DNA of 33,459 nt, taken from positions 1 to 33,459 of the forward strand of contig CAJOIC010000033.1 of the NCBI GenBank assembly GCA_905234625.1, written 5' to 3'. Position numbers and translations under genes: made by a program. This DNA is from an uncultured Oscillospiraceae bacterium. Its GTDB lineage: Bacteria; Bacillota; Clostridia; Oscillospirales; Oscillospiraceae. Shown here piece after piece: positions 13,483 through 24,847 of this stretch (position 1 is its first letter; the number at the start of each line of letters is the position of its first letter). The notes beneath the pieces were generated by a model, which ran no database searches, was not told the origin of the DNA, and was given only the letters and a program-made list of their open reading frames with translations.

Positions 13483-14436
13483 ATGAAAAAATCACTGAAA
13501 ATCATCCTCAGCCTCGTCTGCGTCATCGCGATGATCGCCTCCCTCGGCATCGGCGCCCTGGCCTACACCGACGAGGAGATCGCCAAGATCGCCTCCGACG
13601 CTCAGCGCGCGCTGGACGTGCAGGCGGTGGAGAACATCATGAACCGTCACGTCATGTACCACTGCTATGGCGAGCACCGCGAGGAAATGGAAGAGCTCTG
13701 GGTCCAGGAGCCCGAGAATCAGGCCACGGCCTCCTTCGGCCAGAACCAGGGCTTCATGGTGGGCTACGGTTCCATTTGGGACGGCTATGTGACCGGCCAT
13801 GACGAATCCTGGCTCTCCAGCGCCAAGCGCTACTGCCAGAACAACGGCATCGACGTCTCCGGTTGGACCGACGACCAGATCCTGGAGGTTTACGGCGGCG
13901 TGGGCCAGCTGCTGCTGCATGTCACCACCACCGCCATCATTGAGATCGCCGAGGACGGCAAGACTGCCAAGGGCTTCTGGTACTCCCCCGGCATGATCGC
14001 CGAATCCGGCCAGTCCGGCAATACCATCTATGAGGCATACGGCTGCGACTTCATCAAGGAAGGCGACGAGTGGAAGATGTGGCATCTGCATATGTTCACC
14101 GACTTCATGGGCAGCTTCTACATCACCCTCGGAGGCTCCTCCGGTGAGCCCAACACCTCCGTGGCTCCCACCGCTGCCGCCTCTGCCGAGGCGCCTGCCG
14201 ACAGCAGCGCCCAGGGCGACATGACTGAGGTGGACGAGTTCCTGCGTCACGACTATCTGTCCAGCCCGCAGTACAGCGAGTTCTCCAAGCACCGCCTGCG
14301 CAGCGAGATGGAAGTCATCCCCATCCCCGTGCCCTATGAGAGCTGGAGCTTCGATGTTCCCAACTTCGGCCCCACCGCGGAGGAGTGGGAGAGCATCGGC
14401 GTGGATCTCAGCGCTTGGTACGCGGCCCACAAGTAA
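13483..14436 (+). CDS. Secreted NTF2/SnoaL-like protein
   Basis: The 317-residue product has a Sec signal peptide (basic MKKSLK, hydrophobic core, GALA-YTDEE cleavage near residue 27). Residues about 40-205 look like an NTF2/SnoaL cone-shaped fold: DVQAVENIMNRHVMYHCYGE near its start and KMWHLHMFTDF near its end, a pattern often annotated as a nuclear transport factor 2 family protein. An Ala/Ser/Pro linker (about 222-246) leads to a C-terminal segment ending in VDLSAWYAAHK. A ligand-binding or isomerase-like function is possible but unproven. It is monocistronic, with strong signals at both ends. Confidence 0.78.
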   Translation: MKKSLKIILSLVCVIAMIASLGIGALAYTDEEIAKIASDAQRALDVQAVENIMNRHVMYHCYGEHREEMEELWVQEPENQATASFGQNQGFMVGYGSIWDGYVTGHDESWLSSAKRYCQNNGIDVSGWTDDQILEVYGGVGQLLLHVTTTAIIEIAEDGKTAKGFWYSPGMIAESGQSGNTIYEAYGCDFIKEGDEWKMWHLHMFTDFMGSFYITLGGSSGEPNTSVAPTAAASAEAPADSSAQGDMTEVDEFLRHDYLSSPQYSEFSKHRLRSEMEVIPIPVPYESWSFDVPNFGPTAEEWESIGVDLSAWYAAHK

Positions 14437-14970: not shown

Positions 14971-16203
14971 TTATCCTATCTCTGCGGTGAAGGTGACAGA
15001 GCGGCCCCCGTCCCGTGTCTCGGCCCGGATACTGCCGCCGTACATGGAGGCGATCTCCTGGGCGATGGACAGGCCCAGGCCGTGGCCATCCTGAGCGGCG
15101 CGATGCCCCGGGGCTCGATAGAAGCGCTCGAAGATGCGGTCCAGGTCCGGGGCGGTCAGCCCGTCGCAGTCGTTGGTGAGTTCTATGACAGCGCGTTTGT
15201 CCTGCCGGATGACCAGACGGATGCCGCCCCCTTCGGGGGTGTATTTGACGGCGTTGTCCATGAGGACGGACAGCAGCGTCCGCAGGGCCTCCTCGTTTCC
15301 CGTGACGGTGACGTCGGGCTCGATGTCCGCCGTGACGGTCTGGTCTCGGGACAGGGCCAGAGGCCGGAAGTCCGAGAGGATCCCCTCTCCCAGGGCGCTG
15401 AGGTCCACGGGCAGGTCGGCGTCGTGCTGCTTCTTCTCGCTCAGGAGGGAGTAGGTGGTGAGCTGGTCGATGAGCAGAGAGAGGTGGTCCGCCTGGAGCT
15501 GGGCGTTTTCCAGCCACTCCGAGGTCTTCCCGTCCTCCATGATCTGCATATCCAGGTCGGAGATGATGACGCCGAGAGGCGTTTTGAGCTCATGGCTGGC
15601 GTTGGAGATGAATCGGCGCTGGCTCTCGATGTTTTCCGCGAAGGGACGGATGGCCCGGCCGGAGAGGAGGGTCACCATGGCCAGCACCAGCAGGAAGCTG
15701 ATGAGCCCCACCAGCAGGGAGGTGTCCCACAGGGAGCGTATGGAGGAAAACTCCGTCTCGCACCGGAGAAAGACCAGCTTATAAGGTGTTTCCCGAACCG
15801 CCACATAGTAGCGGTAGGGCCCCACGTCCCCCCGGTCACGGCTGTCTGCCAGGATGCTGGCGATGAGGGCGGAGGCGTCCAGCTCCGCAGCGGCGGAGAG
15901 CACTTCCAGCTGATGGTTCAGAATGGGGCCCGTCATGCCCCCGGAGAAGATGAAGTAGCTGGCCTCGTTCATGATGCCCGCGCTGTTCAGATCCACCCAG
16001 CTGCGGATCTGCTGGGGGGTGCTCATGACCATGCCAACAGGGGGGCCCATATCGCTTTCGGCCAGATAGTCCAGACGGCGGTCGATGCCGACGTAGACGT
16101 TCCGGGTGTTCACGAGATTCACCCCCAGGAGGATGAGAAGCAGCACCGCCAGGAAGGACCACATGACGATGAGGATGAAGCGGCGTCGGAGGTTCGAGAT
16201 CAT
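14971..16203 (-). CDS. Two-component sensor histidine kinase
   Basis: The 410-residue kinase has two membrane segments (about 8-30 and 162-181) around an extracytoplasmic domain of some 130 residues with no obvious known fold. It continues with a dimerisation/phosphoacceptor domain, SNASHELKTPLG with H204, and an ATPase domain: N box LLSVLMDNAVKYTP and a GHGLGLSIA G2 box. The G1 box reads NDCDGL rather than a standard DxGxG. Its ATG overlaps the response regulator stop (ATGA), so the pair are coupled. The stimulus is unknown; the nearest divergent gene encodes a Tat-exported flavoprotein. Confidence 0.93.
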   Translation of the reverse strand: MISNLRRRFILIVMWSFLAVLLLILLGVNLVNTRNVYVGIDRRLDYLAESDMGPPVGMVMSTPQQIRSWVDLNSAGIMNEASYFIFSGGMTGPILNHQLEVLSAAAELDASALIASILADSRDRGDVGPYRYYVAVRETPYKLVFLRCETEFSSIRSLWDTSLLVGLISFLLVLAMVTLLSGRAIRPFAENIESQRRFISNASHELKTPLGVIISDLDMQIMEDGKTSEWLENAQLQADHLSLLIDQLTTYSLLSEKKQHDADLPVDLSALGEGILSDFRPLALSRDQTVTADIEPDVTVTGNEEALRTLLSVLMDNAVKYTPEGGGIRLVIRQDKRAVIELTNDCDGLTAPDLDRIFERFYRAPGHRAAQDGHGLGLSIAQEIASMYGGSIRAETRDGGRSVTFTAEIG

Positions 16204-16880
16204 GACCGCTCCGCCTCCTGGAGGGAGTAGCCCACGCCCCGTTCGCCCCGGATGGACAGGGAGCCCCCGGCCTGGTCAAGCTTCTTCCGCAGGGAGGAGA
16301 TGTGGACCCGGACGACGCTCATGTCGGGCATGTCCTCCCAGCACCAGACCCGCTTGCAGAACTCGTCCGTGGAGACGCTGCGCCCCGGGTCCCTGGCCAT
16401 GAGCTCCAGGATCTGATACTCCTTGCCGGTGAGCTTCACCCGGCCCGCGGGACCGGTGACGCTGTGGTCGCCGCTGTCCAGAACCACATCCCCGATGGTC
16501 AGTGTGTCCGGGCGGTAGGAGGGCCGCCGCCGCAGCAGCGCCCGCACCCGGGCCAGGAGCTCCTCGGAGTGGAAGGGCTTAGGGAGGTAATCGTCCGCCC
16601 CGGCGTCGTAGCCCTCGATCCGGTCCCCTACCTGGGTCTTGGCGGTGAGGATCATCACCGGGACGGACACTCCCGCGGCCCGGAGGCGGCGGATGACCTC
16701 CACCCCGTCCAGCCCGGGCATCATGATGTCCAGGATAAGACCGTCGTAAAGATTCGCCACGGCGTATTCCAGAGCGTCGCTGCCGTTATATACGGCGTCC
16801 ACGGTATAGCCTGCGTGCTCCAGAATGGCGGACAGCGCCCGACAGTAGGAGCGGTTGTCCTCCGCTACGAGGATGCGCAT
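16200..16880 (-). CDS. OmpR/PhoB-family response regulator
   Basis: A 226-residue DNA-binding regulator. The receiver domain has the acidic pocket (E7, D8), phosphoacceptor D51 (LILDIMMPG) and K101 (LPKPF). The winged-helix domain (about 128-222) ends with RVHISSLRKKLDQ and RGERGVGYSLQ. It is first in the regulator-kinase-lipoprotein operon and is transcribed divergently from the flavoprotein gene at 17064, whose promoter lies within 120 bases, so it may control that gene. Confidence 0.95.
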   Translation of the reverse strand: MRILVAEDNRSYCRALSAILEHAGYTVDAVYNGSDALEYAVANLYDGLILDIMMPGLDGVEVIRRLRAAGVSVPVMILTAKTQVGDRIEGYDAGADDYLPKPFHSEELLARVRALLRRRPSYRPDTLTIGDVVLDSGDHSVTGPAGRVKLTGKEYQILELMARDPGRSVSTDEFCKRVWCWEDMPDMSVVRVHISSLRKKLDQAGGSLSIRGERGVGYSLQEAERS

Positions 16881-17063: not shown

Positions 17064-18779
17064 ATGAGCAAGCTCGACAAAAAAATCGCGCGGCGCGACT
17101 TTCTGAAGGGCGCCGGTGCGGCGACCATGGGCGTTGCGGCTGTCAGCGTGCTGGGGGGCGTTGCCTTGGCGGACGCGGAGCCTGACGCAGTTACCGCCGC
17201 CACCGCCGTAGCTGCGGAGCAGGAGTACAGCGCCCCTGTGGCCGGCGGCACGAAGTACACCACCTTCGCGAATCCGGATGAGATCGGCATCCTCCACACC
17301 GCCTCCTTTACAGCTGCGGCGGACGTGGTAGTAGTGGGAACCGGCATCGGCGGCATGATGGGCGCCATGATCCTGGCGGAGCAGGCTCCCGACGCGAAGA
17401 TCGTCCTTCTGGAGAAGAACGCCGACTGCGGCGGCTCCACCAACTACGCCGAGTGCAACACCCCCTCCGGCGGCGCCTCCGACCGCAAGGCGGCCTATAA
17501 GTCCGGCTATACCCAGGCCGCCGCCAGCAGCTATATCAAGGACCCCATCCTCATCGCCGAAATGTCCCTGGATCGGGGCAAGAACTCCGCCTGGCTCTTC
17601 ACGAAGCACAATATCGGCTGGAGCGGCATGTTCTATGAAGGCGGCAATGGCCGCATCCCCATCCAGAAGCTCCGGGCCGAGGTGGAGAGCGATCCCGCCT
17701 ATAAGAACATCGACCTGTACCTCAACTGCCGCGCCACCGCCCTGGTGGTGTCTGACGACGGCTACGAGGTCACCGGCATCCAGGTGAAGAACGCCGACGG
17801 TACCTATACCACCATCAGCTGCAAGGCGGTGCTCCTGGCCACCGGCGGCCTGTCCACGAACTTCGCCCTCCTGAGCTACTATACCGGCCAGGACGTGCAG
17901 GAGAAGTGCCATGGCTGGGGCGAGGGCCAGGACGGCGACGGTCACCTCCTGGTGGAGCAGACCGCCCACGGCCAGTGCAAGGGCATCACCGTGTCCAGCC
18001 TCTTCAACAATGTCAAGGGCTTCGAGTACGATTCCGCCCTGGGCGTAGCTGCCACGATGCAGCCCGCGAACCTCTATGTGAACCAGTACGGCCTGCGCTT
18101 CACCAGCGAGGCTATCAACGACACAGCCGCCTCCGGCAAGATGGTGGAGCTGGCGGGCAAGGTCTTCTCCATCATGGGCCAGGGCCTCATCTCCCACTTT
18201 GAGAACGGCGGCTGCACCCGTCACTATTCCCAGTTCTCCGACGCCCTGGTGGGCGCGCCCTGCGACCTGCAGAGCGAGTTTGTGAAATACGCTGACAACG
18301 AGAACGTCTGCAAGGCCGACATGATCCGGGAGCTGGCTCAGAAGATCGGCGTGGATCCGGACCGGCTGGAATCCACCGTGGAGCAGTACGAGGCCGACTG
18401 CGCTTCCGGCGAGGGAGACAGCTACTTCGGCAAGGCCGCGTCCTATATGATCCCTCTGGGGGAGGGACCTTACTACGCGCTGCGCCTGTCCTCCGGTGTC
18501 CTGAACACCAACGGCGGCATCCGCATCGACTATAACGCCAACGTCTGCGACCCCTATTACACCCCTATCAAGGGCCTGTTCGCCGCGGGCGTGTGCTGCT
18601 CCGGCTGGGACGGCGAGGTCTACGGCGGCGGCACCTGCCAGACCTCCGGCATGTGGGGCGGCTCCAAGGCGGCCCGGGTCATCGTGGAGGATTATCTGGG
18701 CGGCAAGGTGGCCGACGACTGGTTCGGTCCCGAGGAGTACGTCTCCGCGTCCGGCGAGGCCTCCGGCGGACCTTCGTGA
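17064..18779 (+). CDS. Tat-exported FAD-dependent reductase of the fumarate/urocanate-reductase superfamily (first)
   Basis: The 571-residue protein begins with a twin-arginine signal, ARRDFLKGAG, followed by a weakly hydrophobic core and a probable cleavage after ALA near residue 36. The FAD-binding fold starts at about residue 86, with GTGIGG (92-97) and the E of LLEKN. The end carries an FAD-contacting segment, GLFAAGVCCSG, then GGGTCQTSGMWGGSKAA. The C-terminal loop differs from the fumarate-reductase NRLGGN type, so the electron acceptor is probably another organic compound. There is no attached FMN-binding domain. Right after the signal, D41-T47 reads DAVTAAT, a near match to an ApbE flavinylation site. 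A terminator follows and an unlike paralogue converges on it. Confidence 0.9.
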   Translation: MSKLDKKIARRDFLKGAGAATMGVAAVSVLGGVALADAEPDAVTAATAVAAEQEYSAPVAGGTKYTTFANPDEIGILHTASFTAAADVVVVGTGIGGMMGAMILAEQAPDAKIVLLEKNADCGGSTNYAECNTPSGGASDRKAAYKSGYTQAAASSYIKDPILIAEMSLDRGKNSAWLFTKHNIGWSGMFYEGGNGRIPIQKLRAEVESDPAYKNIDLYLNCRATALVVSDDGYEVTGIQVKNADGTYTTISCKAVLLATGGLSTNFALLSYYTGQDVQEKCHGWGEGQDGDGHLLVEQTAHGQCKGITVSSLFNNVKGFEYDSALGVAATMQPANLYVNQYGLRFTSEAINDTAASGKMVELAGKVFSIMGQGLISHFENGGCTRHYSQFSDALVGAPCDLQSEFVKYADNENVCKADMIRELAQKIGVDPDRLESTVEQYEADCASGEGDSYFGKAASYMIPLGEGPYYALRLSSGVLNTNGGIRIDYNANVCDPYYTPIKGLFAAGVCCSGWDGEVYGGGTCQTSGMWGGSKAARVIVEDYLGGKVADDWFGPEEYVSASGEASGGPS

Positions 18780-18800
18780 TACGCAGAATACAGAAATGGC

Positions 18801-18830
18801 ACGGGAGCGGTCCGAAAGGACCGCTCCCGT
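18801..18830 (+). terminator. Terminator between the converging flavoprotein genes
   Basis: A thirteen-base-pair stem (ACGGGAGCGGTCC with its complement) closed by a GAAA loop is followed by TTCTG. It lies 21 bases after the first flavoprotein stop. Confidence 0.8.
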
Positions 18831-18858
18831 TTCTGATGTTCAGCAGGGTTTTGGATCG

Positions 18859-20820
18859 TCAATTATCATCGACTACGAACTGACCTGCCAGGCGGCCGTG
18901 GGTGCCCGCCATGCCGATGGAGTTGCCGGCGCAGGGGGTATTGTAGCCTGTGCCGTAGCGCCCGCCCAGGGAGTTGCCGCAGGTATAGAGGCCTTTGATG
19001 GGGTTGCCGTTCAGATCCGTGACGTTCAGGCGGTTGTTGGTCATGACGCCGGACATGGTGACCATGCTGACGCTGGCGCCGCCGCCGCCCACGGAGCCGG
19101 AGCAGGCATAGAAGGGACCCTCCTCCACGGGGATCATGGCCTCGGCGCGCTTGCCGAAGTCGGAGTCCACTCCCGCGTGGCACAGCTCATTGTAGCGCTT
19201 GACGCTCTCCACCACGTTGGGGACGATATCGTCGGAGTAGCCGATCATCTTCGCCAGCTCCTCGATGGTGTTGGCGCACATGACGCCGGCGCTCATGCGC
19301 TCCGCCACGGTGCAGCCCATGACGCTGCCCCGGCTGCCGGGCTGGATGGCGGCCATGCCGTCGATGATATCCTGATAGAACTGGGGACGTCCCGCGTTGG
19401 GACCGCCGTGCTCCAGGCCGCAGGCGCACAGGGCCTTCATCCAGTTCTTGTCCACGATGCAGCAGGCGATGCCCCGCTTCTGACGGGCGCAGGCGGTCTG
19501 CGCGCCGGTGACGTTGCCCTCGTTGCAGAAGCGCTTGCCCTCGGCGTTGAGCCAGAGCATGGAGTTGGTGCCCCAGGGACCGCCGGGGCCGCCGCCCAGG
19601 ACCATGGTGCCGCGGGGCGCGGGCTCCACGAAGCCGCCCGCCCAGCACATCATCTTGACGGAGGAGCCGTCCCGGCCGGAGGAATAGAACCGGTCCACGG
19701 AGCCGCCGGCGCGTTCGCTTCTCTCCATGTACTCGTTCAGCAGGGCCCAGCTCATCTCCTTGTTGCCGGCATAGTCGCCGCCGGCCATGACCACGCCCTT
19801 GCTGGTGTTCAGCTGGATGTACTCGCCGGTGGTATCGTCCTGGACGATGACGCCGGTGACGTCGCCGTCGTCGTTCTGCACCAGGACCACGCCGGAGGTG
19901 CCGTACATGAGCTCCGTACCGTAATCCCGGACGCACTTGTCAAGGCACGCCTGGTTCACCAGGGGGAGCTTGGAGTTGGCCGCAACACCCGCCACCATGT
20001 GATCGTTGTACTCTCCCATGAACTGGCAGGAGGCCGCCCAGGTCTTGGTGCCGGGCCAGATGGGATAGTCCTTGCGCAGGCAGTCGTAGATGTCCGCGCC
20101 GGAGGCCCACTTGTCATAGTCGAAGTTGGCCTGGATGATGAGCCAGCCGTCCTCGGTGTTGTCGTAGGTGTAGACCCTGGGGTCCACGCCCATCTCCTCG
20201 GCCACCTCCAGCATCCGGTCCATGGTGGGGCCGGAATTGTAGACGTACAGCCGGATGATCTCCGGGAAGACGCGGCCGCCGGAGCGGGTGACGAACTCGT
20301 CCACCACCTCGCCCAGATCATAGGGGCCGAAGCCCGCCTGCTCCACCTGGACCTTGGAGTTCCAGGCGCCGAAGTCCTCGCCGAACCAGGAGTGGGTGTC
20401 CTTGGGGTGCTTCTCCACGCCGATGACCTTCGCGCCCTTCTCTGCAGCGCCCAGCACCGCCTGGACGCCGGAGTGGCCCAGGCCGATGACTGCCACATCG
20501 CACTCGATGGTGCGGGCAATGGACAGAGAGCCGATCTCCGGGGCCTTGCCCAGCCAGTCGCCGGGACCGGAATAGCCCCATACGCGCTCGCCGGTGGTGA
20601 CCTCGCCCGGGGTCACCTCGCCGGAGCCGCCGCCGGAGGCTCCGCCCTGCCGGGAGCGGGGCTCCTCTTCCTCTACGGTGGCGCCGGAGACAGCGTCCGT
20701 CTCGCCGGAGGCGAAAACGCCCGTCCCCAGGATGCCCACGGCGGCCGCGCCCACGGTGGCCGCTCCGGCGCCCTTTAGAAAGTCACGCCGGGAGAGCATT
20801 TTCTTCTTCTTGTTTTCCAT
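18859..20820 (-). CDS. Tat-exported FAD-dependent reductase with an N-terminal flavinylation-like tag (second)
   Basis: The 653-residue protein has a twin-arginine signal, SRRDFLKGAG, with likely cleavage after VFA (residue 37). The mature start is SGETDAVSGATVEEEE: D42-T48 fits the ApbE flavinylation motif D-x-x-[S/T]-G-A-T. A Gly/Glu-rich linker leads to the FAD fold (GLGHSG at 113-118, E136) and a C-terminal cofactor segment GLYTCGNSLGGRYGTGYN, then PCAGNSIGMAGTHGRLAG. That ending resembles large reductase families of gut anaerobes (Eggerthella-type) acting on unsaturated organic acids; the substrate is not known. The ATG lies 37 bases after the S41-like gene, with AAGGAG upstream, so they form an operon. 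Confidence 0.9.
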   Translation of the reverse strand: MENKKKKMLSRRDFLKGAGAATVGAAAVGILGTGVFASGETDAVSGATVEEEEPRSRQGGASGGGSGEVTPGEVTTGERVWGYSGPGDWLGKAPEIGSLSIARTIECDVAVIGLGHSGVQAVLGAAEKGAKVIGVEKHPKDTHSWFGEDFGAWNSKVQVEQAGFGPYDLGEVVDEFVTRSGGRVFPEIIRLYVYNSGPTMDRMLEVAEEMGVDPRVYTYDNTEDGWLIIQANFDYDKWASGADIYDCLRKDYPIWPGTKTWAASCQFMGEYNDHMVAGVAANSKLPLVNQACLDKCVRDYGTELMYGTSGVVLVQNDDGDVTGVIVQDDTTGEYIQLNTSKGVVMAGGDYAGNKEMSWALLNEYMERSERAGGSVDRFYSSGRDGSSVKMMCWAGGFVEPAPRGTMVLGGGPGGPWGTNSMLWLNAEGKRFCNEGNVTGAQTACARQKRGIACCIVDKNWMKALCACGLEHGGPNAGRPQFYQDIIDGMAAIQPGSRGSVMGCTVAERMSAGVMCANTIEELAKMIGYSDDIVPNVVESVKRYNELCHAGVDSDFGKRAEAMIPVEEGPFYACSGSVGGGGASVSMVTMSGVMTNNRLNVTDLNGNPIKGLYTCGNSLGGRYGTGYNTPCAGNSIGMAGTHGRLAGQFVVDDN

Positions 20821-20857
20821 GCGATTCTCCTTTTTGATGGTGGTGTATTTTCAGTTC

Positions 20858-21997
20858 TTACTCAACGTAGTCAAGTGCCCGCTCCATGAGCACGTCCCGA
20901 CGGCATTCCTCCGGGGTCCAGGGGACGTACACGTCCGGCACGACGCCCTTGCCCAGCACACCCCGGCCTTCCCGGGCGGATTTGGTGACGGCGGTGGGCC
21001 AGGTGAGGACGAAGCGTTCGTCCAGCTCCAGAGACACGTCCCCGCAGAGGTCGATGGTGCCCAGGGTGGGCCGCCCCATGAGGACTGCCCCTGCGCGCTT
21101 GGCGGCGAGAGCCAGGGTCTCCGCGCCGTCCCGGGTCCAGGTGTCCGTCAGGACGATCACGGGCTTATCACCGAGGCCCCGGACCACCGTGCCGTCGTCA
21201 TCGTTCTCCGGAAGAAGCCCCCTGCCGGATTTCTCCCGCAGCTCGGTGATGAAGCCCTCCGCTCCCTCGACGCCCCGGAGCCCGGCGGCCTTCACCAGGC
21301 AGTTGAGCCGGGTGTAGTTCACGAAAAGCTCCGTGTCCGCAAGGGCCGACAGGGGGATGTCCTCCCGACAGACGCGGGACAGAATAGAGGGCAGCTCGTC
21401 CTCGTCGAAGTCCGGCACGTTCCGCAGGTCCAGGATGAGAGCCTTTTCCGTCTCGCGGATGCCGACTGCCGGGGCGGCGTCCGTCCTCGGCAGGCGGCGC
21501 AGCTCCAGCCGCTCCGTCGTACCGTCGGCATGGGTCACGTCCATGACCTGGGCCATCTTGAGGAGCCCATGCCAGTCCTCCCGCTCCGGCTCTCGGGCGT
21601 AGAAAAAATCCTTCTGGATGGACCTGCGCTGTCTGGCGGGGGAGGCGCCGTTTACGGCGGTGATCCGGTCCCCCACGGAGAGCCGGTCGTCCCCCGTCAC
21701 GGCGGTGATGTATAGGTCGTCCCCGTACCGCCGGGTGAAAAAACCCGGCTGCCAGGGGGCATACTCCGCCGAGGGACGCAGCGTGAGCCGCAGATGCCTG
21801 TCCCCGGTGCAGGCCAGCATCTGGCTGACATACCGGAGAAACAGAAGCTCGTCCAGCCGCCGGTCCTTCCACGCCTGGCCCACGGCTTGATTGTAGTATC
21901 GGGGATCGAGGCGGTCGCCTGTCAGCTCCGCGCCGGCATAGTCCCGGCGGAGGATCATCACGATCTCACCAAACAGCTCGTCAAAATTTTTACTCAT
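20858..21997 (-). CDS. S41 (C-terminal processing peptidase)-like protein, apparently inactive
   Basis: The 379-residue protein has the layout of an S41 peptidase: helical N-terminus (1-75), a PDZ-like segment with VGDRITAVNG (108-117), and a crotonase-like catalytic domain from about 184 (ALILDLRNVPDFDEDE). Where active enzymes have the nucleophile, as in SASASE, this one reads WTRDGAE with D290, and the GKG lysine of the GexTfGKG motif is replaced in GRPTLGTIDL. It therefore looks like a non-proteolytic relative. No signal peptide is seen. ATG at 21997 sits at the predicted transcription start; the ATG at codon 14 has GGTGAG six bases upstream and could be the true start. It is upstream of the second Tat reductase. 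Confidence 0.8.
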   Translation of the reverse strand: MSKNFDELFGEIVMILRRDYAGAELTGDRLDPRYYNQAVGQAWKDRRLDELLFLRYVSQMLACTGDRHLRLTLRPSAEYAPWQPGFFTRRYGDDLYITAVTGDDRLSVGDRITAVNGASPARQRRSIQKDFFYAREPEREDWHGLLKMAQVMDVTHADGTTERLELRRLPRTDAAPAVGIRETEKALILDLRNVPDFDEDELPSILSRVCREDIPLSALADTELFVNYTRLNCLVKAAGLRGVEGAEGFITELREKSGRGLLPENDDDGTVVRGLGDKPVIVLTDTWTRDGAETLALAAKRAGAVLMGRPTLGTIDLCGDVSLELDERFVLTWPTAVTKSAREGRGVLGKGVVPDVYVPWTPEECRRDVLMERALDYVE

Positions 21998-22003
21998 ACT
22001 CTC

Positions 22004-22032
22004 ATTATAATTAATAAACGGTTATTTGGCAA
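22004..22032 (-). promoter_or_regulatory. Promoter of the S41-like / second reductase operon
   Basis: On the minus strand TTGCCA (22027-22032) and TATAAT (22004-22009) are separated by 17 bases. Transcription would begin at about 21997, on the annotated start codon, so the mRNA may be leaderless or start at a later codon. Confidence 0.75.
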
Positions 22033-22053
22033 TGCAATTTGTATGTTTTTTTC

Positions 22054-22082
22054 TTGCGTGGGCACAGGTGGCGTGCTATGAT
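22054..22082 (+). promoter_or_regulatory. Promoter of the FMN-protein/tat operon
   Basis: TTGCGT (22054-22059) and an extended -10 TGCTATGAT (-10 at 22077-22082) are spaced by 17 bases. It is divergent from the promoter at 22004-22032, with the two -35 boxes only 21 bases apart, so a shared regulator is possible. Confidence 0.75.
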
Positions 22083-22123
22083 AAGGAAGTGAGAAAATAT
22101 CGAGAGTATGCAGGGTGCTGTGT

Positions 22124-23410
22124 ATGAAAACAGGATTCAGGAAAATTCTGCTTCAGCCCTATGTGATGCTGATGCTGGTGGCCATGGTCATGAGCTTCGC
22201 CATCGCCGGGGTCTACGCCGTCACGAAGGACACCATCGAAGCCGCCGCTCTGGAGGCCCAGGCCGCGGCGCGCACCGCCGTCATGCCAGAGGCCGCAGCC
22301 ATGGCGGAGCTGCCCCTGGGGGAGGACGATCCCGTGGATTACTGTTATGAGGCGTATGACGCCGCCGGGAACGTCGTCGGCTATGTGAGCCAGATCACGG
22401 TGGTGGGCTTCGGCGGGGAGATCGAGGTCACCGTGGGCATGGATATGACGGGCGCCATCACCGCTGTCTCCGTGGGTGGCTCGGACTTTTCCGAGACCTC
22501 CGGTCTGGGCGCAAAAACCCGGGAGCCCGGCTTCACGGAGCAGTTTTCCGGTAAGAGCGGGATGCTGGTGCTCAAACAGAATATCGACAGCGTCACCGGC
22601 GCGTCCGTCAGCTCCGGCGCGGTGGTCAGCGGCGTGAACAAGGCCGTGAGCTATATGTCCGCTCTCCTGCCCGAGGACCCGGACACCGCGGCGGAGGAGA
22701 TCCCTCTGACAGCGGAGCAGCTTCTCGCCCTGGGGGCGGAAAACCCCGTCTGGATGGGCGGAGGCTCCGGCATCGACGGCTGGTGGCGGACGGACGGCGG
22801 TTATATCGTCCGGGCTACGGGCTTCGGCGAGGGGCCCATCGTGGTGCTCATGGCCTTCGATAACGACGGTGTCGTCACCGGCATCGTCATCGGCGACGAG
22901 AATTTTATGGAGACCGAAGGCCGCGGAGACCGCGTGCTGGAGGATTGGTACAGAGCCCAGTTCCTGGGACGCAGCGGCGTCCAGGCCTACGGCGCCGGAC
23001 TGGACGCGATCTCCGGCGCCACGGTCACCTCCGATGCCACCCTGGCGGCCATCAACGCCTGCATGAGCTTCGACCCGGCTACGGGCATTTCGGCAGTATC
23101 GGCAGTGGAGGATACGCTTCCCGGCGAAGCCTCTGCGGAGACGGACGCCGTGACGGAGGCCTCCGTTCCCGAGAAGGAGACCACGGCGGAGCCCGTGTCG
23201 GCAGAGCCGGATGCGGTGACAGAGGCCTCCGTTCCCGAGGAGGAGGCGGTGTTGGTCACACCCAGTCCCACGTTTGCGCCGGCAGAGCCGGATGCGGTGA
23301 CGGAGGCGACCGTCCCGGAGGAGGAAGAGGCGCGGACCCCGCTGCCCAGGGTGTCCCTGGCGCCGCTGCCCACGCCGGACGCTGTGACCGAGGCGTCCGT
23401 TACGGAGTAA
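22124..23410 (+). CDS. Membrane-anchored protein with two FMN-binding domains and a tag-like tail
   Basis: The 428-residue product has one N-terminal membrane segment (about 9-34) and two FMN_bind domains of the RnfG/NqrC type, which receive FMN covalently from ApbE. The first domain ends in DSVTGASV (D155, acceptor S161) and the second in DAISGATV (D294, acceptor T300). The acidic, Pro-rich tail (about 335-428) repeats D-A-V-T-E-A-[S/T]-V four times, at D341, D363, D390 and D419. It probably carries electrons from membrane donors to extracytoplasmic reductases; that role is inferred from the family. ATG at 22124 has AGGG eight bases upstream; a GTG three codons earlier is an alternative. It heads the operon with tatB, tatA and tatC. 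Confidence 0.9.
   Translation: MKTGFRKILLQPYVMLMLVAMVMSFAIAGVYAVTKDTIEAAALEAQAAARTAVMPEAAAMAELPLGEDDPVDYCYEAYDAAGNVVGYVSQITVVGFGGEIEVTVGMDMTGAITAVSVGGSDFSETSGLGAKTREPGFTEQFSGKSGMLVLKQNIDSVTGASVSSGAVVSGVNKAVSYMSALLPEDPDTAAEEIPLTAEQLLALGAENPVWMGGGSGIDGWWRTDGGYIVRATGFGEGPIVVLMAFDNDGVVTGIVIGDENFMETEGRGDRVLEDWYRAQFLGRSGVQAYGAGLDAISGATVTSDATLAAINACMSFDPATGISAVSAVEDTLPGEASAETDAVTEASVPEKETTAEPVSAEPDAVTEASVPEEEAVLVTPSPTFAPAEPDAVTEATVPEEEEARTPLPRVSLAPLPTPDAVTEASVTE
23144..23407 (+). repeat. Four in-frame repeats coding DAVTEA[S/T]V in the FMN protein tail
   Basis: The repeats begin at 23144, 23210, 23291 and 23378 and code for DAVTEASV, DAVTEASV, DAVTEATV and DAVTEASV. The spacing is 22, 27 and 29 residues, with acidic and Pro-rich linkers. 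Synonymous codons differ between copies (gacgccgtgacg, gatgcggtgaca and others), which suggests selection on the protein rather than a recent DNA duplication. Confidence 0.85.
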
Positions 23411-23423
23411 GGGAGGCGAGCGC

Positions 23424-23825
23424 ATGGGAGCGAGACTGGGATGGGGCGAGGTCGTCATCATCCTCATCATCGCCCTGATCGTGCTGGGGCCGGACAAACT
23501 GCCCCAGGCAGGGCGCGCCCTGGGCAAGGCCGTGCGGGGCGTGAAGAAATATATCCGCGAGGCCACCCAGGAGCTGGAGGACTTCGACGAGCTCAAGGAC
23601 ATCAAGGAGGACGTGGAGGGTATCCGGAAGGATCTGCGCACCATGGGCCGGGACCTTGAAAAATCCGTCGCCGAGGAGACGGAGGCCCTGGAGCGGGAGG
23701 CGGAAGCGGCGGCGGAGGAGATCCGCACCGCCGTGGAGAAGGAACCGGAGCCGGACCCGGCCCCGGAAGAAACAGAAAACGGACCGGCTGACGAGGCCGG
23801 CGTGAATACACAGGAGGAAACTTAA
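23424..23825 (+). CDS. tatB: Twin-arginine translocase subunit, TatB-like
   Basis: This 133-residue protein has the short N-terminal membrane helix with E9 (GWGEVVIILIIALIVLGP), then a hinge and amphipathic helix (LPQAGRALGKAVRGVKKY). The LGPDKLP hinge and long coiled, charged C-terminal region favour a TatB-like role (cargo binding with TatC) over pore-forming TatA. GGGAGG precedes the ATG, 13 bases after the FMN-protein stop. Many Clostridia have no Tat system, so its linkage to Tat-signal flavoproteins here is informative. Confidence 0.85.
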   Translation: MGARLGWGEVVIILIIALIVLGPDKLPQAGRALGKAVRGVKKYIREATQELEDFDELKDIKEDVEGIRKDLRTMGRDLEKSVAEETEALEREAEAAAEEIRTAVEKEPEPDPAPEETENGPADEAGVNTQEET

Positions 23826-24062
23826 ATGAAAGCTGGAATATGGGAACTTTTGATCGTTCTGGCCATCGCGCTTCTGATCTTCGGACCGAAGGCCCTGCCG
23901 AAGCTGGGGAAATCCCTGGGCAAGACCGTGGGCAACTTCAAGAAGGGCCTCGGCGAAGACGATGAGGATGACGACGAGGACGAAAAGCCCAGAAAGTCGA
24001 CCAAGGCCGCGGCGGAGGAGACCGCCGAGGATGAGAAGAAGCCCTACGACCCCGAGCGTTGA
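23826..24062 (+). CDS. tatA: Twin-arginine translocase subunit TatA
   Basis: The 78-residue product has the TatA layout: helix WELLIVLAIALLIFGP with E7, then the amphipathic PKLGKSLGKTVGNFKKG, and an acidic tail (EDDEDDDEDEK). It is shorter than its neighbour, consistent with the pore-forming role. The ATG directly follows the tatB stop, with AGGAGG upstream. Its stop overlaps the TTG start of tatC. Confidence 0.9.
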   Translation: MKAGIWELLIVLAIALLIFGPKALPKLGKSLGKTVGNFKKGLGEDDEDDDEDEKPRKSTKAAAEETAEDEKKPYDPER

Positions 24063-24847
24063 GCAAGGCCGCTAAAAAACAGGACGATAAGGCCATGACC
24101 GTGGCGGGACATCTGCGGGAGCTGCGCCAGAGACTCTTTTGGAGCGTTCTCGTGTTCGTCGCGCTGTCGGTGCTGTGCTTCGTCTTTATACAGCGGTTCG
24201 TGGACGCCGCCCTGGCGCTGAGCACGGGCTTCGAGTTCGTCTATCTGTCTCCCTCGGAGCTTTTGACGAGCTATATGAAGCTGTCGCTGGTGCTGGGGCT
24301 CGTGCTGTCGTCGCCCTTCATCCTGTGGCAGGTCTGGGCCTTCGTGCAGCCGGGCCTCACCCGGAAGGAGGCCTCCTCCGCCCGGTCCGCCATCGTGGCG
24401 GGGTTTGTGTTCTTCATCCTGGGCGTGGCGTTCTGCTATCTCCTCATCCTGCCGCTGACGCTGCAGTTCCTTTACAGCTTCAACGGCTCCCGGGATATCA
24501 CCGCCAGCATCTCCTTCAACAACTACATGAACTTCATCCTGGGGATGCTGGTGGCCTTCGGCGTGGTGTTCGAGATGCCGGTGCTGAGCTTCCTGCTGTC
24601 CCGTCTGGGTCTTCTGGATCCGAAGATCCTGGTGAAGGGCCGGAAGTACGCCGTGCTGGTGGTGTTCCTGGTGGCGGCCATCATCACCCCGCCGGATGTC
24701 CTCAGTCAGATCATGACGGCTGTGCCCATGCTGGGCCTGTATGAGCTGAGCATCCTGGTGGCCCGGGCAGCCTGCAGGCAGCGCGCGGACGACGAGGAAG
24801 AGGACGAAGAGGAAGGCGACGAGGAAGAGGACGAATCCGACGAATGA
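24059..24847 (+). CDS. tatC: Twin-arginine translocase core subunit TatC
   Basis: TatC (262 residues) is the receptor for twin-arginine signals. The N-terminal HLRELRQRLFWSVLVF and the following loop SPSELLTSYMKLSLVLGLVL, with six hydrophobic segments, are diagnostic. TTG at 24059 overlaps the tatA stop (TTGA) and is preceded by acidic coding sequence without a strong ribosome site, so coupling is likely. An unusual C-terminal tail of about 20 acidic residues follows the last helix. Confidence 0.95.
   Translation: MSKAAKKQDDKAMTVAGHLRELRQRLFWSVLVFVALSVLCFVFIQRFVDAALALSTGFEFVYLSPSELLTSYMKLSLVLGLVLSSPFILWQVWAFVQPGLTRKEASSARSAIVAGFVFFILGVAFCYLLILPLTLQFLYSFNGSRDITASISFNNYMNFILGMLVAFGVVFEMPVLSFLLSRLGLLDPKILVKGRKYAVLVVFLVAAIITPPDVLSQIMTAVPMLGLYELSILVARAACRQRADDEEEDEEEGDEEEDESDE

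Follow-up and report, generated by a model that had tools for sequence, protein, structure and literature searches.

Candidate natural flavin tags behind the Tat signals of fumarate-reductase-like proteins in an uncultured Oscillospiraceae bacterium

The window analysed here is a stretch of 33,459 nucleotides from an uncultured Oscillospiraceae bacterium (assembly GCA_905234625.1, contig CAJOIC010000033.1) and corresponds to contig C33 of a draft genome of 2.18 Mb that is 82% complete. It encodes two reductases with a twin-arginine translocation (Tat) signal, named R1 and R2, and a flavin mononucleotide (FMN) protein, all of which carry short peptides resembling the site at which ApbE flavin transferases attach FMN. 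R1 (17064-18779, plus strand, 571 residues) and R2 (18859-20820, minus strand, 653 residues) are convergently oriented and were assigned by Pfam to the fumarate-reductase-like family PF00890 (FAD_binding_2) with 110 and 81 bits, respectively (cut-off 20.4). The TAT_signal model scored 26.5 bits for R2, above the cut-off of 22.7, and 20.0 bits for R1, below it; nevertheless, the N-terminus of R1 has the stretch RRDFLKGAG followed by a hydrophobic segment. Signal peptides were judged from this model and by eye. In the Pfam scan, neither the FMN_bind domain (PF04205, E 0.001) nor an ApbE domain (PF02424) was found in R1 or R2. The FMN protein (22115-23410, plus strand) is RnfG-like and consists of an N-terminal hydrophobic stretch, two FMN_bind domains (PF04205) and a Pro/Glu-rich tail. 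It scores 115 bits on the RnfG model TIGR01947 (cut-off 102), and its gene lies outside the rnf genes, which are located on contig C16.

By residue pattern, R1 carries the peptide DAVTAAT at residues 41-47 (17184-17204, plus strand) and R2 the peptide DAVSGAT at residues 42-48 (20677-20697, minus strand), each with its Asp at position +5 of the predicted mature protein. These two N-terminal peptides are called tags in the following. In the FMN protein, Pfam and the residue pattern identified the acceptor sites DSVTGAS of the first FMN_bind domain (residues 158-164, 22586-22606, plus strand) and DAISGAT of the second (residues 297-303, 23003-23023, plus strand). The tail, likewise read on the plus strand, adds four copies found by residue pattern, i.e. 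DAVTEAS from residue 344 (23144-23164), DAVTEAS from residue 366 (23210-23230), DAVTEAT from residue 393 (23291-23311) and DAVTEAS from residue 422 (23378-23398), the last being followed by VTE and the stop codon. No further D-x-x-[ST]-x-A-[ST] was found in the three proteins. All tags and tail copies were thus located where the original prediction had placed them, and outside any FMN-binding domain, with R1 and R2 lacking a Pfam FMN_bind domain and the tail lying downstream of the second one. Position 5 also reads as described: R2 has Gly and hence fits D-x-x-[ST]-G-A-[ST], R1 has Ala, and the tail has Glu. A preceding E-T or E-P, which had been stated for all motifs, is present in five of the six; the exception is the fourth tail copy, which follows T-P.

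Among 35 genomes of the genus, R2 orthologues were found in ten (own genome included) and R1 orthologues in four, the R1 copies of the genomes G691, G692 and G693 being 83-91% identical. A third subfamily, R3, occurs in G691 and G693 and is approximately 30-36% identical to R2. The tag D-A-x-[ST]-[GAS]-A-[ST] is present in all 16 Tat PF00890 reductases found in the genus (four R1, ten R2, two R3), while the bodies of the three subfamilies are 25-36% identical. For this count, the window's R1 and R2, both R3 and one further R1 were scanned with Pfam, and the other tagged proteins were taken as PF00890 by orthology. The contigs L045-L053 duplicate those of nine genomes (9/9) and were counted once. 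Outside the count are PF00890 proteins of the genus with no Tat signal (L065, L126, L099-L103, L107) as well as two proteins of the own genome (L009, L011) and a fragment of G692 (L104), which lack their N-termini at contig ends. Searches with R1 and R2 against 391 genomes of the class returned the window alone at E<=1e-45 and 1e-60; a search with R2 against 300 genomes of the family matched seven, own included.

All 16 tags start at mature +3 or +5. The R1 tags are DAVTAAT in the window and DAATAAS, DAVTAAS and DAATGAS in its orthologues, the R2 tags are DAVSGAT (twice), DAVTAAT, DAVTGAS and DAATGAS (six times), and the R3 tags are DAVTGAS and DAVSSAT. Consequently, positions 1, 2 and 6 are invariantly D, A and A, Ser or Thr occupies positions 4 and 7 throughout, and at position 5 there are eleven Gly, four Ala and one Ser. 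The codons at position 7 vary (TCN or AGY for Ser, ACN for Thr) while the residue class holds, and residue changes in the tag are confined to V/A, S/T and G/A. Over all pairs, differences in the tag codons were residue-preserving in 18 versus residue-changing in 14 cases for R1, and 127 versus 118 for R2; of random nucleotide changes, approximately 27% would be residue-preserving (computed on tail codons). Just after the tag, the linker of R2 varies in length and sequence, whereas the corresponding residues in the four close R1 orthologues are partly conserved.

The DNA pattern for D-A-[VIM]-[ST]-x-A-[ST] gave ten matches in the whole genome, compared with two for a reversed-pattern control. 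Seven of them lie on the window contig (R1, R2, the four tail copies and the FMN_bind site DAISGAT), a clustering with a binomial probability of 2e-11, which ignores possible duplication among the tail copies. Off this contig, the matches are the RnfG site on C16, one with Cys at the last position and one in an open reading frame that looked spurious by eye. Cleavage sites (VFA, ALA, AFA and similar) were chosen by a uniform rule, which places the tag Asp at mature +5 except in R2 of G691 and G693, where it is at +3. After shuffling of the linkers, the motif with its Asp at mature +1 to +6 arose in 0.02% of cases for R2 of the window and in 0.04-0.45% for its orthologues, in 0.10-0.12% for R1 of the window (shuffled twice with slightly different linker ends) and 0.06-0.17% for its orthologues, and in 0.06-0.26% for R3. 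A mere chance likeness in a linker rich in Ala, Ser, Thr and Gly could draw on the observation that, with the position left free, shuffled R2-orthologue linkers yield the motif in 0.3-4% of cases; the preservation of the tag in 16 of 16 proteins at a fixed position and its rarity genome-wide make this explanation highly improbable.

To look beyond the genus, a profile was built from 13 of the 16 leaders, with R2 of G095, G257 and G163 left out as near-copies, and searched against 400 genomes of the family, yielding 68 places in 36 genomes. These comprise eight known R1, R2 or R3, 52 fetched stretches and eight that were left out (L180, L181, L183, L184, L185 and places in G123, G295 and G148; E 0.003-0.009). 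A Tat-like start was present in 47 of the 52 fetched stretches, and the other five were dropped before the Pfam scans. The 47 scanned proteins are L186 and L187 from the genus and 45 from outside it, L203, L213 and L220 being incomplete. PF00890 was detected in 31 of the 45 outside proteins, and 28 of these 31 also contain PF04205; within approximately 95 residues of the leader start, none of the 31 has the motif with any residue at position 5. The remaining 14 have neither PF00890 nor the tag (L213 and L220 incomplete; L216 with FMN_bind on another body). The original prediction had proposed a search for enrichment of the motif at mature N-termini; run within one genus and family, it came out in favour of the prediction and gave the tag in 16 of 16 proteins of the genus, and a fused FMN_bind domain in 28 of 31 outside. 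Fisher's test on 16/16 versus 0/31 for the tag returned 7e-13, which overstates the difference, since related proteins were compared and tagged sequences went into the profile. Two of the 28 domain-bearing Tat PF00890 reductases, L207 and L209, have FMN_bind at the C-terminus instead of the N-terminus.

In the genus itself, the ten places found with the leader profile are eight tagged reductases plus L186 and L187, two Tat proteins with a similar leader, no FAD_binding_2 domain and no tag, which served as negative controls. Pfam gave no body family for either; a 'SDQH' stretch suggests, by eye, a metallophosphoesterase. The two proteins bear on an explanation by which the Tat signal and a few mature residues were copied among the reductases as a cassette and kept for export or signal-peptidase processing, the ApbE likeness being secondary. 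In its favour, leader plus tag are 53-71% identical among R1, R2 and R3 in five pairs, far above the 25-36% of the bodies, and therefore the tag was possibly inherited with such a cassette. L186 and L187, however, show that a similar leader occurs without the tag, and in R2 the tag persists amid variable surrounding residues, so that we regard such a cassette, kept for export or processing, as an unlikely explanation of the tag.

The position of the tag relative to the missing domain became apparent in alignment A2, in which the R2 tag coincides with the FMN_bind acceptor site of L054, L055 and L057 (SNEPDAATGASVS versus SSEIDGVSGASVT), while approximately 75 residues between signal and site are absent in R2. 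The phylogenetic tree is midpoint-rooted and carries a program warning about the long branches by which R1 and R3 are joined. In it, the ten R2 proteins have the domain-bearing L055 as their sister (93/91, below the program's star level). Next neighbours of this group are L054/L057 with FMN_bind and L062/L063 with neither Tat signal nor tag. In the simplest history, an R2 ancestor with a full FMN_bind domain would have lost all except the acceptor peptide; alternatively, a leader-tag cassette from R1 or R3 may have replaced the domain. The earlier proposal that a covalent FMN on the mature N-terminus replaces a fused FMN-binding domain is thus supported in its replacement part by the alignment and, moderately, by the tree; the covalent FMN itself is no part of this outcome.

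In the own genome, one ApbE was detected (PF02424, 252 bits, above cut-off) on a contig separate from R1 and R2; its N-terminus is lipoprotein-like, with a lipobox-like stretch read by eye. Within the window, R2 is adjoined by a gene for an S41-peptidase-like protein (20858-21997, minus strand; PF03572, 26.4 bits, cut-off 24), and the FMN protein gene is followed by those for TatA (23424-23825, plus strand; PF02416) and TatC (24059-24847, plus strand; PF00902). The S41-like gene and the FMN protein gene are neighbours of R2 in the window and in G691-G693, and TatA/TatC are also close to R2 in the window, G692 and G693, the G691 contig ending before that point. TatA was found near R2 in five of the related loci examined. 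In each of six sister genomes FMN_bind was found once, in a protein reading as RnfG, and in G163 a tagged R2 lies approximately 5 kb from genes reading as rnfD and rnfG, separated from them by tatC, tatA and the S41-like gene. Since an RnfG-type FMN carrier is present in both settings, as the two-domain protein in the window and as RnfG in the sisters, an RnfG-type protein is the likely electron donor to the tagged reductases in both.

The S41-like protein has no evident signal. Across families, it adjoins R2 relatives that carry the tag, FMN_bind or neither, and it was therefore set aside as a possible partner of the tag.

For R2, an AlphaFold2 model calculated from 26 sequences was used (mean predicted local distance difference test score, pLDDT, 79.6; predicted template modelling score 0.82), and a model from 13 sequences (mean 43.8) remained unused. 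The model from 26 sequences shows a mostly confident flavoenzyme body from approximately residue 91 onwards, which matches flavocytochrome c3 and urocanate reductase. Residues 1-77 have a pLDDT below 50, which fits disorder, although a thin alignment there could give the same result. The tag is therefore probably carried on a flexible arm of approximately 50 residues, according to this model.

Taken together, we consider it probable that R1 and R2 carry natural flavin tags, in which the FMN_bind domain is reduced to its acceptor peptide, and that these are flavinylated in trans after export and fed by an RnfG-type protein. This reading is based on a conserved tag that, within the genus, is paired with Tat PF00890 proteins and, for R2, aligns with the FMN_bind acceptor site of relatives, and on the presence of one ApbE. 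R1 and R2 would be extracytosolic fumarate-reductase-like enzymes whose seven-residue acceptor peptide lies a few residues from the mature N-terminus, behind the Tat signal. Tat would export the folded reductase, and a surface ApbE would then move FMN from flavin adenine dinucleotide (FAD) onto the last Thr or Ser of the accessible tag. On a flexible arm of approximately 40-60 residues, the tethered FMN could take electrons from an FMN of the RnfG-type protein, i.e. the two-domain FMN protein in the window or RnfG in the sister species, and hand them to the FAD of the catalytic domain. We infer from the sequences that the FMN is covalently bound and swings on its arm, as well as which protein is the donor and in which direction electrons flow. 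As described in the accessible parts of studies on engineered tags, seven residues suffice for an ApbE tag, which works best at a terminus, and replacement of Gly by Ala leaves approximately 50% (PMC12052999); the importance of the motif Asp is judged differently in two studies (PMC12052999, PMC10722498).

Several points weigh against natural flavin tags. The consensus Gly is absent in three of the four R1 orthologues, and R1 alone says little, because its orthologues are 83-91% identical, have some conserved residues behind the tag and mostly lack the Gly. All 16 tagged proteins stem from ten genomes of one genus and are not independent, and the profile used for finding leaders was built from tagged proteins. 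Three of the 31 outside Tat PF00890 proteins (L200, L203, L204) have neither a Pfam FMN_bind domain nor a tag; of these, L200 is of the succinate-dehydrogenase type, L203 is incomplete, and L204 is of the old-yellow-enzyme type, in which FMN_bind was found by a home-made hidden Markov model. L062 and L063, relatives of R2 at approximately 59-63% identity, are devoid of Tat signal, FMN_bind and tag. On the tree, FMN_bind needs three changes and the tag two, and long branches meet; with the midpoint root, these long branches and the three FMN_bind changes, the direction of change is unsettled on the tree. The high identity of leader plus tag between subfamilies belongs here as well. The ApbE candidate matched the NCBIfam ApbE equivalog model below cut-off (103 of 498 bits), and the ApbE search covered the own genome only.

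The FMN protein matched 29 of 300 genomes of the family, the 28 matches other than the own genome covering approximately one RnfG domain only (query residues within 4-202), and no two-domain form with a tail was met beyond the genus in these 300 genomes. Its tail was compared between the window, G692 and G693, which have four, five and three motif copies, respectively, after the second FMN_bind site. All three tails end three or four residues past the last copy, and the copies in the window are spaced by 22-29 residues. At position 5, the twelve copies from these three species have Glu ten times, Ala once and Ser once, both exceptions occurring in G692 (the Ala copy reads DASTAAS). Among 89 FMN_bind site segments read, which come from overlapping loci and are hence not independent, position 5 is Gly in 87, Ser in two and Glu in none. 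Residue-preserving versus residue-changing differences between the copies number 18 versus 3 in the window, 8 versus 0 in G693, and 25 versus 53 in G692, where the residue-preserving share of approximately 32% compares with an expectation of approximately 27%. The tail peptide is thus constrained in two of the three tails, with no clear constraint in G692.

The original prediction had grouped the tail copies with the tags under one ApbE-like flavinylation motif. The motifs are there, but none of the FMN_bind sites read shares their Glu at position 5, and flavinylation of the tail copies is, from these sequences, uncertain. Position 5 is variable at true sites, as is evident from RnfD: in the alignment, the Clostridium tetanomorphum chain reads D-G-V-T-T-A-T, whose last residue is 153 by count, and FMN is attached to Thr153 according to the accessible part of the report (PMC9588780), and in the RnfD of the own genome the acceptor site is DAATYAT, with Tyr in place of the consensus Gly (L115 6314-7375, minus strand). 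In two genomes of another genus of the family, RnfG has a bare DAVSSAT at its end, behind its FMN_bind domain (L111 1020-1742 and L112 2268-2984, both minus strand). In the same genus as the window, the two-domain RnfG-like protein L129 (G695:C111) runs into an NrfA-like ammonia-forming nitrite reductase domain, which occupies the place of the tail and is truncated by the contig end. Flavinylated tail copies would add to the flavin tags of the reductases and turn the FMN protein into a multi-flavin brush reaching through the wall to them. The RnfD sites, the Ala and Ser copies of G692, the terminal DAVSSAT and the cytochrome domain of L129 speak for such a brush, which we nevertheless hold to be somewhat less probable than its opposite. 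The Glu in ten of twelve copies versus none of 89 sites, the location of the RnfD sites in a membrane pocket rather than on a loose peptide, the five G692 copies with no clear excess of residue-preserving change and the spacing of 22-29 residues in the window all stand against it.

The same tail could be explained by docking, the motif on the reductases and the tail being bound by a common partner such as ApbE acting as a scaffold, a wall component or each other, with no flavin involved. This accounts for the prevailing Glu, absent from the FMN_bind sites read, and for two tails being constrained as peptides. It would not predict that the reductases preserve what ApbE chemistry calls for, with Ser or Thr in positions 4 and 7, a small residue in position 5 and Ala in position 6, nor that the tag coincides with the acceptor site of the missing domain, and the Tat proteins with no FAD_binding_2 domain that were read have no tag. 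A docking site therefore explains less than a flavin tag, and we judge it rather improbable. Beyond the flavin tags on R1 and R2, a wider picture may be drawn tentatively, in which the genus would run its external respiration on natural flavin tags: ApbE would decorate loose termini rather than folded domains, so that every exported reductase would have a mobile FMN arm and the RnfG-like donor a multi-flavin tail, giving a relay that has no folded carrier domains on the reductase side. We rate this possibility well below that of the tags themselves.

A SnoaL-like protein with a signal-like start is encoded in the window at 13483-14436 (plus strand), a homologue of which neighbours R1 in G692 (L108), and a second SnoaL-like match adjoins a flavoenzyme in L056. 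A two-component system (14971-16880, minus strand) is located beside R1 and likewise in G692 and G693; it may be a sensor of the R1 substrate.

If seven-residue tags can replace a domain, flavin-linked external respiration is undercounted, and censuses based on the FMN_bind domain overlook tagged proteins; the large survey of flavinylated proteins started from FMN_bind (PF04205) and ApbE, as stated in the accessible part of that work (PMC8238504). Moreover, the locus offers natural candidate ApbE substrates with Gly, Ala, Ser and Glu at position 5 and suggests a route by which a carrier domain shrinks to its attachment peptide. A natural bacterial reductase in which FMN_bind is replaced by a bare N-terminal acceptor peptide was not found in the literature searched, which lacks most subscription papers, so that this is no proof of novelty.

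Terminal tags, multi-flavin RnfG proteins and covalent FMN on exported PF00890 reductases are each of a known kind; the following comparisons refer to the accessible parts of the cited sources. Listeria FrdA and Shewanella UrdA are, like R1 and R2, extracytosolic with a PF00890 body, and their covalent flavin links to a membrane electron source; they are described with an FMN-binding domain, whereas R1 and R2 retain the acceptor peptide only (PMC8238504). The two RnfG-type FMN_bind domains of the FMN protein resemble multi-flavinylated RnfG proteins, through which Rnf has been proposed to have a side exit towards external acceptors. RnfG with multihaem domains has also been described there, and for a tail of repeated motif-like peptides no counterpart was met in that description (PMC8238504). 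FMN_red proteins of Lactococcus are flavoproteins with an unstructured terminal extension on which flavinylation sites are predicted, and flavinylation was shown by co-expression; in contrast to R1 and R2, the extension is C-terminal, on an FMN_red fold and near the family's own flavin-binding site (PMC10979944). The NADH:fumarate reductases of trypanosomatids (Leptomonas, T. brucei FRDg) share with R1 and R2 the combination of a fumarate reductase domain with a bare N-terminal flavinylation motif, and in the Leptomonas enzyme FMN on Ser9 of the motif D3..S9 is required for activity (PMC8065229). They differ in being eukaryotic and glycosomal with the ApbE domain fused in cis, while the proteins described here are bacterial, have a Tat signal and depend on an ApbE encoded apart, if the proposed reading holds. 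The engineered flavin-tag, finally, is likewise a seven-residue terminal peptide flavinylated by ApbE (PMC12052999, PMC10722498); it is a laboratory construct, whereas the tag of R1 and R2 appears to be natural and conserved.

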